Shown here in pieces: positions 9,809 through 40,412 of a DNA stretch of 64,000 nucleotides (its first letter is position 1; each line of letters starts with the position of its first letter). The notes under the pieces were generated by a model that made no database searches, was not told the origin of the DNA, and saw only the letters and a program-made list of their open reading frames with translations. Position numbers and translations under genes: made by a program. The stretch comes from Limosilactobacillus caviae (GTDB lineage Bacteria; Bacillota; Bacilli; Lactobacillales; Lactobacillaceae): positions 1-64,000 of the forward strand of contig NZ_BMDS01000004.1 of assembly GCF_014635905.1 (NCBI RefSeq). The letters are read 5' to 3'.

Positions 9809-11530
9809 ATGAGTTTTGATATGGATCACGAGCAGTTTGCCTCATTTTACGGACCAACTACTGGCGATAGCGTACGACTAGGCGATACAGACTTATTTGC
9901 CAAAGTCGAAAAAGACCTAACAGTTCATGGTCAAGAAAGTTTATTCGGTGGTGGAAAAGTCCTTCGTGATGGAATGGGTGTTAGTGCCACTGAAACCCGT
10001 GCCGGAAATCCAATGGTTGCCGATACAATTATTTCTGATGCACTTATTATTGATTGGACTGGAATTTATAAGGCGGATATTGGTATTCGTGACGGTAAGA
10101 TCCTTGCCATTGGTAAAGGTGGTAACCCAGACGTCATGGATAACGTTGATTTCATTGTCGGGGCAAGTACTGAAGCCATTTCTGGTGAAGGAATGATTGT
10201 TACCGCTGGTGGAATTGACCTCCACGTTCACTACATTACCCCATCCATTGCTCAAGCTGCTTTGGATAACGGTATTACAACCTTATTTGGTGGTGGTACC
10301 GGTCCTGCTAATGGTACTCGTTCCGCTACTTGTAACCCTGGAGCATGGTACACTCACCGGATGCTTCAAGCGGTTGATAACGCTCCTATTAACTATGGTT
10401 TGATGGCTAAGGGTTCTGGTTCACGTCCAGAATTGATTGGTGAACAAATCGAAGCCGGATGTGCTGCCATTAAGACTCACGAAGACTGGGGTGCTACTGC
10501 TGCCGGAATTGAAAATTCAATTGCTGCGGCTAATAAGTATGATGTTCAATACGCCGTCCACACTGACTCGTTAAACGAAGGTGGATTCGTTGAAAACACC
10601 ATCAATGCCTTTAACGGCAATACAGTTCACACATTCCACACTGAAGGTGCCGGTGGTGGACACGCTCCTGACATTATGGTTGTTGCTGGTCAAGATAATG
10701 TTCTTCCATCATCAACAACTCCAACTAACCCATATTGTAAGAACACCCTTGATGAATTGTTCTACATGACAATGGTTTGCCACAACCTTAACCCTAAGAT
10801 TCCTGACGATGTTGCCTTTGCTGAATCACGTATTCGGAAACAAACTGAAGCTGCCGAAGACGTGCTCCAAGATATGGGTGCCCTCAGTATGATGACTTCT
10901 GATGCGCAAGCCATGGGACGTGTTGGTGAAGTTGCTATGCGTTGTTGGCAATTAGCAAGCAAGATGAAGAAGGTTCGCGGACCGCTTGAAGGTGATTCCA
11001 AGTACGATGATAACAACCGGATCAAGCGTTACGTTGCTAAGTACACAATTAACCCAGCTATCTGTAACGGTATTTCAGATTATGTTGGTTCAATTGAAGT
11101 TGGTAAGTACGCTGACTTGAATATCTGGGATCCTAAATACTTCGGTACCAAGCCTGACATGGTTATTAAGAACGGTATGATCACATACGGTATTGCTGGT
11201 GATCCAAGCTCAAGTCTTCCAACACCAGAACCAGTTCTTGAACGTTACCTTTACGGTGCTGAAGGCCGTGCTGTTAACCACACATGTGTAACCTACGTAT
11301 CTCAATATGCTTACGACCACGGTATTAAAGAACAACTTGGCTTGAACAAGACTATCCTTCCTGTTCACAATACCCGGAGCATTACTAAGGCTAACATGAA
11401 GCTTAATAATTACACGCCAAAGACAATTGAAATTGATCCACAAACATATGACGTTAAGATTGATGGCAAGCTGATCACCTGTGATGCAGCGCCAACACTA
11501 CCATTAACTCAACGTTACTACCTATTCTAA
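9809..11530 (+). CDS. ureC: Urease subunit alpha (catalytic)
   Basis: 573 residues. Nickel ligands are visible: HVH at 139-141, the lysine that becomes carbamylated at K222 (AIKTHEDWG), and the histidines of YAVHTD and HTEGAGGGH. The mobile flap carries MVCHNL, with the usual flap Cys and His. All catalytic features are intact, so the enzyme should be active once matured by UreEFGD. A strong hairpin lies directly after the stop codon. Confidence 0.98.
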
Positions 11531-39190: not shown

Positions 39191-39208
39191 GAATCTCGCT
39201 CCTGGGTT

Positions 39209-39242
39209 ATAGAATAATTCTTTTTTATTTTACACCTGTCAA
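39209..39242 (-). promoter_or_regulatory. hemH-mntH promoter with a PerR/Fur-like box
   Basis: On the minus strand TTGACA (39242-39237) is 17 bases from AATTAT (39219-39214). AGAATTATTCT (39221-39211), a perfect palindrome resembling the core of PerR boxes (TTAGAATNATTCTAA), covers the -10. Repression by a PerR or Fur-family regulator and release by peroxide or metal shortage would fit the genes. Confidence 0.6.
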
Positions 39243-39253
39243 CATAAATTTTC

Positions 39254-39282
39254 TTGACAACTTACTTTTTGCTAGTTATGAT
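39254..39282 (+). promoter_or_regulatory. Promoter of the cysK leader
   Basis: TTGACA and TATGAT are exactly 17 bases apart, with transcription expected to begin about 20 bases before the leader-peptide ATG. Confidence 0.7.
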
Positions 39283-39312
39283 AACTATAATTTGAAATAC
39301 GAGGGAATACTG

Positions 39313-39399
39313 ATGAAAAACAATTATTTTGTTAACGCAAATACTTGTTGTTGTGAATCGCGTCTTATGCGACTCACTTTTTGGTATACTCATTTTTAA
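39313..39399 (+). CDS. Cysteine leader peptide of the cysK attenuator
   Basis: 28 codons with three Cys in a row (TGT TGT TGT, codons 12-14: NANTCCCESR). GAGGGA lies six bases before the ATG. It is followed by alternative hairpins and a terminator ahead of cysteine synthase. Stalling at the Cys codons when charged tRNA-Cys is low would expose the antiterminator segment. Confidence 0.82.
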   Translation: MKNNYFVNANTCCCESRLMRLTFWYTHF

Positions 39400-39469
39400 T
39401 TGAATTACTATTAAGCTGATATCACATAAGGCACAGATCCAAGAACATTTCTTGAGTTTGCGCCTTTTT
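39353..39469 (+). promoter_or_regulatory. Cysteine-responsive transcription attenuator of cysK
   Basis: Three structures compete. The local hairpin is GTGAATCGC (39353-39361) with GCGACTCAC (39369-39377). The antiterminator pairs GTCTTATG (39362-39369, the hairpin loop) with CATAAGGC (39425-39432), eight pairs including one G-T. The terminator (39428-39469) pairs AAGGCACA with TGCGCCTT around an inner CAAGAA/TTCTTG stem, then TTTTT. A ribosome stalled on Cys codons would cover the left arm of the first hairpin and free the loop for antitermination. Confidence 0.8.
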
Positions 39470-39497
39470 CGTATACTTTGAGAAAGAAGGATTTTTG

Positions 39498-40412
39498 ATG
39501 CTAGTTGAAAATACGTATGATTTGATTGGTCACACCCCGTTAATGCACTTGCCAATGGAAACACCTAATAATGTTAATATTTATGCCAAACTTGAAATGT
39601 TTAACCCTGGAGGCAGTATTAAAGATCGTTTAGGAATGGCCTTGATTCAGCGCGGGATTGAAGAGGGAAAAGTAAAATCAACAACGACGATTATTGAACC
39701 AACTGCGGGGAATACGGGAATTGGTGTTGCACTAGCGGCGTTAAAGCACCATTTATCAGTTAAACTAGTAGTCCCAGAGAAGTTTAGTTATGAAAAACAA
39801 ACTTTGATGCGGGCATTGGGAGCAGAAGTAGTTAATACGCCAAGTGAGGAAGGAATTAAAGGGGCAATTGCCAGGGCAAAGGAACTAGCAGCTGAAATTG
39901 GGGATGCTTATGTGCCATTGCAATTTCAAAATCAGGCAAATCCAGATGTATATCAGCATACCCTTGGACCAGAAATTTTAGCTGACCTCGCTAATAAGCC
40001 AATTGCCGCCTTTGTTGCTGGTGCCGGAAGCGGGGGAACGTTTGCCGGAATTCAAAAATCGTTAAAGGATGCCTATCCTGACCTTAAAGGCTATGTTGTT
40101 GAGCCAGCGGGATCAATACTAAATGGTGGACCCGCTCACAGTCACCGGACAGAAGGAATCGGCGTTGAATTTATTCCGCCTTTCTTTAAGAGTTTGGACT
40201 ATACAGGGGTAAAGACGATTAGTGATGATGATGCCTTTTACTATGTACGGTGGGCTGCTAAACATCTTGGCCTATTCATCGGTAGTTCTAGCGGAGCAGC
40301 CTTAGCGGCAAGCCTAGAAGTAGCAAAGGAATTACCAGCAAAGGCTAATTTGGTAACTGTTTTCCCTGATTCTAGCGAACGCTACTTGAGTGAACATATA
40401 TATGAGGTTTAG
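39498..40412 (+). CDS. cysK: Cysteine synthase (O-acetylserine sulfhydrylase)
   Basis: 304 residues, fold-type II PLP enzyme. The PLP lysine is in [11 protein letters not shown] (about residue 43), the substrate loop is [10 protein letters not shown], and the phosphate-binding [10 protein letters not shown] is present. The C-terminal half contains [11 protein letters not shown]. It makes cysteine from O-acetylserine and sulfide, though some lactobacillus relatives act in methionine-to-cysteine conversion. AAGAAGG precedes ATG 39498. Confidence 0.93.

Follow-up and report, generated by a model that had tools for sequence, protein, structure and literature searches.

The gene cysK, located at positions 39498-40412 on the plus strand of a 64,000-nucleotide stretch of Limosilactobacillus caviae DNA (contig NZ_BMDS01000004.1, positions 1 to 64,000; the window in what follows), is preceded by an RNA leader that, judging from its sequence and that of its relatives, is very probably a ribosome-mediated transcription attenuator sensing Cys-tRNA(Cys). 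The leader contains a short open reading frame (ORF) with three consecutive cysteine codons, followed by a local hairpin and by two mutually exclusive structures, an antiterminator and an intrinsic terminator. This arrangement is conserved in the window's own family, the Lactobacillaceae (hereafter the family), where the paired regions covary and the antiterminator begins at a preferred distance from the cysteine codons. The attenuation mechanism itself is classic, and it is the amino acid, the clade and the regulon that set this case apart.

Architecture of the cysK leader

The leader peptide MKNNYFVNANTCCCESRLMRLTFWYTHF consists of 28 codons followed by TAA (39313-39399; ATG at 39313-39315, TAA at 39397-39399). 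Codons 12-14 are TGT TGT TGT (39346-39354), in agreement with the 28-codon Cys-Cys-Cys leader named in the first-pass annotation of this DNA, and these regulatory codons are conserved in the family. A Shine-Dalgarno (SD)-like GAGGG is found at 39301-39305, and the leaders of relatives carry similar sites. The local, or protector, hairpin (39353-39377) is supported by folding and covariation, and it overlaps both Cys codon 14 and the 5' arm of the antiterminator. The antiterminator comprises eight pairs between 39362-39369 (GUCUUAUG) and 39425-39432 (CAUAAGGC), which are indicated by the sequence, by folding and by pair changes in relatives. The terminator (39428-39469; stem 39428-39466, U tract 39465-39469), likewise supported by folding and covariation, shares 39428-39432 of its 5' arm with the antiterminator. 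The same annotation had listed these three elements with their shared bases, and the eight-pair antiterminator is present exactly as it described.

Each element is unusually stable when folded alone. The local hairpin reaches -9.9 kcal/mol (z -3.85; matched by 1 of 200 shuffles), the segment 39362-39432 reaches -18.8 kcal/mol (z -5.7; 0 of 200) and the terminator reaches -16.3 kcal/mol (z -5.2; 0 of 200).

Upstream of the leader peptide, a rule scan finds a promoter-like site of the sigma-70 type (TTGACA-17-TATGAT, 39254-39282, 11 of 12 matches), and TTGACA lies at most 85 nucleotides before the start codon in 63 of 76 distinct family leaders. The predicted promoter ends at 39282 and the SD-like site precedes the ATG at 39313. 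Thus, taking the transcription start as predicted, the leader is not of the leaderless type. The presumed regulated gene encodes a protein of 304 amino acids in the cysteine synthase family whose best match is TIGR01139 cysK (E 2.4e-89, 299.5 bits). This match does not reach the curated cut-off of 350.95, and exact equivalence of the product to TIGR01139 cysK is not certain. All of these features are on the plus strand.

Proposed mechanism

When cysteine is plentiful, a ribosome translating the leader would pass the three Cys codons and either cover 39362-39369 or allow this segment to return to its pairing in the local hairpin, after which the terminator at 39428-39466 would form and transcription would stop ahead of cysK. 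When cysteine is short, the ribosome would wait while its A site holds Cys codon 12 or 13. The front edge of a ribosome usually lies about 15-16 nucleotides from the P-site codon, which would place the edge of the waiting ribosome at about 39358-39361. A ribosome in this position would mask the 5' half of the local hairpin, leaving 39362-39369 free to pair with 39425-39432, and this pairing would break the base of the terminator such that RNA polymerase continues into cysK. We infer from this architecture that the leader is translated, that ribosomes stall on it, that transcription terminates and that cysK responds to cysteine.

Conservation in the genus and family

Of 50 genomes searched in the genus, 35 contain a match with E no higher than 0.001. 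Twenty loci (L029-L048) encode a CysK that is 63-100% identical to the window CysK, and at 18 of these orthologous loci a Cys-run leader with an SD-like site is located upstream of cysK. One of these leaders (L045) has CCR in place of CCC. In another (L041), the frame is shifted after the Cys codons and the nucleotides are still alike, which therefore points to selection on the RNA. The leader at L044 has a nearly identical counterpart (L356) on a Limosilactobacillus fermentum DR9 plasmid. No such leader is present within 340 nucleotides of the second CysK paralogue (40-43% identity) at ten loci (L049-L058).

A covariance model (R1) built from 16 leaders was searched in 396 family genomes, and 86 of them matched at E 0.001 or better. 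All 70 hits scoring at least 38.8 bits, from 61 genomes and nine genera, have a Cys-codon leader. Of the 102 places listed, 94 were read, the other eight being low-scoring. Among the 24 read that score below 38.8 bits, seven have a Cys-run ORF and 17 have none; six of the seven precede CysK, and one (G077) is without an SD-like site. These 24 places were excluded from the statistics, although one (G101) came back as L262 through another search. Among the 76 distinct family leaders, the Cys run is CCC in 65, CCx in seven and CxC in four.

The genes following the 70 strong hits encode CysK in 36 cases, cystathionine-lyase (Cgl)-like proteins in 22, permeases in seven and MetA-like proteins in two, with three remaining without assignment. 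Assignments to CysK and Cgl-like rest on BLAST to the window CysK and to the Cgl-like protein encoded elsewhere in the same genome (L060; see below), and those to permeases and MetA-like proteins were made by eye. The one permease tested is most similar to cystine permease NF011680 and the one MetA-like protein tested to NF047918, both below cut-off.

Covariation supports the local hairpin and the terminator. In a 76-row alignment (75 distinct) fitted to the model, 21 of 24 pairs have changed in both partners, and pairing holds in 92.8% of cells versus 32-58% when the arms are slid. The unfitted 16-row alignment gives both-sided changes in 12 of 24 pairs, with 93.9% of cells paired versus 28-54% when slid. 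A search of relatives for conserved Cys codons with compensatory stem changes had been proposed as a check, and both were found.

Antiterminator pairing and spacing

For each of the 76 distinct family leaders (a different set from the 76 rows of the fitted alignment), the best duplex was determined between the stretch after the Cys codons and the 5' flank of the terminator. A leader's own antiterminator arms pair with a mean of -18.5 kcal/mol, versus -12.5 kcal/mol with foreign terminator arms less than 70% identical, and the own arm is the better partner in 69 of the 76. The types of pair also vary. For example, position +19, counted from the first nucleotide of Cys codon 1, is UA in 46 leaders, CG in nine, UG in nine, AU in six and GC in three. 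Duplexes were picked as the best for each sequence, so that these pair-type counts are biased towards pairing; the own/foreign swap test is free of that bias. At the level of sequence comparison, then, the antiterminator covaries across the family leaders.

The spacing of the antiterminator is likewise characteristic. Counted as above, its first paired base lies at +14 in 51 of 76 leaders and at +13 in a further ten. With the ribosome edge distance given above, +13/+14 is the first free base when Cys codon 1 occupies the A site.

Predicted folding under a ribosome

The effect of a ribosome was modelled by a masking scan, in which the RNA is folded at equilibrium with no pairing allowed under a 30-nucleotide footprint and with its end placed before the terminator 3' arm. 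The readout is the mean probability that the 5' base of the terminator pairs upstream. For folding statistics, 126 sequences were reduced to 115 by removing identical ones. Ten stretches without a leader, three in which no terminator was found and the G033 and G037 cysK leaders, whose terminator is replaced, were also removed beforehand.

Among the 76 family leaders, the probability is 0.91 with Cys codon 1 in the A site, 0.77 with Cys codon 2, 0.47 with Cys codon 3 and 0.34-0.39 at codons +3 to +11, and it rises again further on (0.67 at +13, 0.85 at +14). When spacers are shuffled, it is 0.56 at Cys codon 1 and 0.53 at codon +6. These stepwise probabilities indicate that a ribosome at Cys codon 1 or 2 would favour read-through and that one just past them would favour the terminator. 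The hairpin positions had been said to fit stalling at codons 12-14. In the scan, a ribosome at either of the first two Cys codons leaves the antiterminator available, and one that has passed the third mostly abolishes it, such that codons 12-13 fit best.

Points that weigh against attenuation

A number of observations argue against the interpretation given above. The rule scan for terminators listed the local hairpin and not the terminator at 39428-39469, and the rule-scan counts are at shuffle level (9 promoter-like sites versus 7.2, and 3 terminator-like sites versus 3.2). The arrangement at cysK is nevertheless taken to be beyond chance because the leader, the hairpins and the terminator are kept in relatives with compensatory changes. 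On a MAFFT alignment the column count for the antiterminator is modest: 87.3% of cells are paired versus 83.6% in shuffles, three of the eight pairs are changed on both sides, and 69.0% remain paired when the arm is slid by +2. Judged by eye, the antiterminator arm of L044, L046 and L048 is wrongly placed in this alignment, and for this reason the per-sequence duplexes were used beside the column count.

There are also departures from the pattern. Two of the 20 genus orthologues (L037 and L038) have no leader nearby upstream, and at L033-L035 (minus strand, about 2410-2620) the leader and antiterminator arms are kept while the terminator has given way to an insert of about 140 bases that carries a hairpin and U tract of its own. 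Outside the family the swap test is weak, the own arm being better in 24 of 39 leaders, a group that includes L153 (Lactobacillaceae by name) and L314 (outside the order). In Lacticaseibacillus paracasei (L. paracasei) FAM18149, a cysE-cysK operon showed no significant change by reverse transcription quantitative PCR, as reported in PMC6004538.

The masking scan raises further difficulties. The probability in the 76 leaders is already 0.85-0.92 when the A site is still one to eight codons short of Cys codon 1. Thus, if the folding model is taken at face value, a ribosome delayed before the Cys codons could cause read-through as well. Ribosome-free RNA favours the antiterminator at equilibrium (mean 0.72; window 0.95), and so does the window RNA when a ribosome has come close to the stop codon (0.94-0.95). 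Shut-off would therefore have to depend on folding kinetics, with the local hairpin being the first to form. Equilibrium folding alone cannot explain the off state, which would require a local hairpin that forms early and persists.

Occurrence outside the family

Of 295 Lactobacillales genomes searched with a CysK alignment (A4), 58 have a match with E no higher than 1e-90. Upstream of 48 of these 58 cysK orthologues there is an SD-led leader whose Cys run is CC or longer, and the other ten have no such leader. The first-pass annotation had called a cysteine-sensing attenuator in a lactobacillus unusual, a description that understates this spread. A second model (R2) matched in 31 of 395 genomes of the order, with a best score of 48.5 bits outside the family.

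A CysK scan of named genomes, in which the best 80 of 594 candidates were considered, gave mostly distant CysK proteins and three useful named leaders, in Ligilactobacillus apodemi, Enterococcus hermanniensis and Marinilactibacillus psychrotolerans (L153-L155). The other 77 of these best 80 loci, which include three second CysK paralogues of Lactobacillales (by name), serve as a control and have CCC in none and CC in six by the same rule. In the class Bacilli outside the order, one CCC leader (L314) and one CC leader are found among 29 loci, which are the best-scoring of 135 matched genomes with our own excluded and with at most two ORFs considered per locus. The leader at L314 stands before cysK together with an enterococcus-like terminator in a genome placed outside Lactobacillales, which raises a question of transfer or of placement.

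Among the 39 leaders outside the family, the masking-scan probability drops by 0.17, versus 0.02 in shuffles. The leader and terminator are clear in these sequences, and the switch is likely to operate there too, with less support than within the family. Many leaders in L268-L304 (families f2 and f7) have longer Cys runs such as CCCLCC and CCCTCC, and several of them carry a TCATG-type stretch that is complementary to the terminator arm and located farther from Cys codon 1.

A second leader in the same genome

A pattern search of our own assembly found TGTTGTTGTGGATCGCG at G000:C7:26735. This second, paralogous CCC leader, MFNNQYVNATVCCCGSRLMRPTVWRAYF (L060 1468-1640, G000:C7), has the same RNA elements. 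It precedes a gene of the cystathionine gamma-synthase/lyase family, whose matches are below cut-offs, and then the start of a permease-like ORF. In Limosilactobacillus reuteri (L. reuteri), cgl and cyuABC are described as a cysteine-dependent stress pathway (PMC6722424), and we infer that the cluster behind the second leader is the counterpart of cgl/cyuABC.

The spacer between the -35 and -10 boxes of L060 contains a dyad, AACTTAT-N5-ATAAGTT, at 1414-1432. It is present in five of the 76 family leaders, and by eye the window cysK promoter has only a looser form of it. From its sequence and position, this dyad is possibly an operator.

A search of the genome gave no CysE match over cut-off. 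The genome also encodes a second CysK paralogue (entry G000:C1:389726-390622), which at related loci stands after a MetA-like gene (by eye); in L. paracasei, the gene named metA is reported to encode a serine acetyltransferase (PMC6004538). Elsewhere in the window, at 9970-10253 on the minus strand, there is an Rfam match to 5_ureB_sRNA (84.3 bits), which may only mirror the conserved urease coding sequence.

Plasmid operons and published expression data

Published RNA sequencing data agree with the prediction that expression responds to cysteine. In L. paracasei FAM18149, the genes cysK2, ctl1 and cysE2 are up by log2 2.9-3.2 in cysteine-deficient versus methionine-deficient medium (PMC6004538). 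The authors note high read coverage of the 5' untranslated region (UTR), propose premature termination, and describe a rho-independent terminator with the motif AAGGGCGCGAAA-N16-TTTCGCGCCCTT (PMC6004538). They found neither a T-box nor an S-box there, could not identify the regulator and also reported an antisense RNA; the main text contains neither 'leader peptide' nor 'attenuation' (PMC6004538). A companion paper describes the cysK2-ctl1-cysE2 cluster as highly mobile and, for the terms searched, has nothing on a leader (PMC6200037).

The exact FAM18149 motif is present at 1383-1422 in plasmid pLC1 of Lacticaseibacillus rhamnosus (L. rhamnosus) Lc 705 (L357) and in L. paracasei CAUH35 (L358), and it is on these plasmid records, not on the FAM18149 sequence, that the identity rests. 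In both, the motif stands behind a CCC leader, MSQSMFNAINCCCRTTRFWRCSAC, whose own antiterminator reaches -22 kcal/mol with its first pair at +16. This leader is not among the annotated genes in the incomplete gene tables. A blastn search of plasmids with the leader sequence gave no match, and 38 plasmid records came out of a protein search, three of which were read. The FAM18149 data support cysteine-dependent premature termination in this leader family, and do not bear directly on the window cysK.

Comparison with known systems

The classic ribosome-mediated attenuators control amino-acid operons such as trp, his, leu and thr. In common with these, the cysK leader has a short ORF, a codon run for the product amino acid, and an antiterminator and intrinsic terminator that are mutually exclusive. 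It differs from them in using Cys codons, in belonging to no Rfam family and in having paralogous copies at several cysteine-supply genes. Poly-cysteine leaderless ORFs of mycobacteria are reportedly cysteine-responsive, going by the title of a 2020 paper by Canestrari. The mycobacterial and actinobacterial cys leader peptides also have Cys-codon runs before cysteine genes; however, the Mycobacterium leaders start leaderless and have no conserved terminator hairpin as described in PMC1262725, whereas the cysK leader is SD-led and has both terminator and antiterminator. Among Firmicutes, the attenuator class is represented by Rli60 of Listeria (ilv-leu; PMC8079631), and histidine leader peptides have been predicted in bacilli (PMC2965389).

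A likeness in arrangement may also be drawn with uORFC-8-2 of Rhodobacterales, in which tandem Cys codons in an upstream ORF are followed by a terminator stem (PMC8632094). However, that element occurs in Alphaproteobacteria before cysS and has two Cys codons inside its first stem, and the gene downstream of our leader is of the cysK family, not cysS. The two were set apart on these grounds, without an alignment. The control proposed for the FAM18149 5' UTR concerns the same type of operon as in L357 and L358, with an identical terminator motif.

The T-box (RF00230) resembles the cysK leader in that terminator read-through is controlled by an amino acid, and it is used for amino-acid genes of lactobacilli. 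The statement that T-boxes usually do this job in lactobacilli stands in part: our assembly has 28 T-box matches, none of them at this cysK. There is also no T-box match on the contig with the only cysS match over cut-off, although with the specifier codons unread a cysteine T-box elsewhere is possible. A cysteine leader peptide for lactobacilli is not named in the open-licence literature searched, which leaves most subscription papers outside it, and it is not certain that such an attenuator is unpublished.

Alternative explanations

Given how frequent T-boxes are in this genome, and that L. paracasei is reported to have a cysteine T-box before a transporter (PMC6004538), one could suppose that translation plays no part and that uncharged tRNA(Cys) or a metabolite is sensed directly by a T-box or other riboswitch. 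We regard this as the least probable of the alternatives. Besides the lack of a T-box match at the locus, an Rfam scan of 39200-39600 found no riboswitch family and, at E up to 1, only a snoRNA (E 0.75). At gathering score, there is no Rfam match in L060, L153-L155 or L356-L358 either. Conservation of the leader ORF, together with its SD-like site and Cys codons, also speaks against a riboswitch. Another reading takes the terminator palindrome as the binding site of a transcription factor, with the leader ORF incidental. The published palindromic motif may be read in that way, and the promoter-spacer dyad in five of 76 leaders hints at some bound factor. However, the palindrome is not kept as a sequence, since both partners of its pairs change. 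It also leads into a U tract, its best match is the leader arm of its own sequence, and all 70 strong hits keep the Cys codons. This reading is therefore very unlikely.

A third possibility is ribosome arrest by the nascent CCC peptide, for instance through metal binding or oxidation, in which case the signal would be metal or redox state and not cysteinyl-tRNA. Cysteine side chains could bind metal or be oxidised, and cysK of L. reuteri is listed among hypochlorous acid-induced genes (PMC6722424). However, the stretch ahead of the Cys codons has 9-15 codons across the 76 family leaders and, by eye, varies in its residues; variants such as CCS, CCY, CCR, CLC and CPC occur; and the identified targets are genes for cysteine, cystine or transsulfuration. 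The first Cys codon lies at the ribosome-edge distance from the antiterminator, as fits waiting in the A site. We thus give peptide arrest little credence and retain attenuation by Cys-tRNA(Cys) supply.

Implications

On balance, and with more reserve than for the cysK leader itself, we favour a broader proposal. Cys-codon attenuators would occur throughout Lactobacillales, duplication having carried them to positions ahead of genes for biosynthesis, transsulfuration, cystine transport and acyltransferases, and these bacteria, rich in T-boxes as they are, would sense cysteine mainly through them. The attenuators would also explain the control of cysK2-ctl1-cysE2, with the published palindrome as their terminator. 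For lactic acid bacteria, the finding offers a mechanism of cysteine control that is concrete and can be tested, one that would cover the L. paracasei methionine-to-cysteine operon whose regulator the authors could not identify (PMC6004538). The +14 spacing in 51 of 76 leaders provides a natural experiment on the edge position of the waiting ribosome. Finally, with leader-peptide attenuation present beside 28 T-box matches, two sensors of tRNA charging may be compared within one cell.
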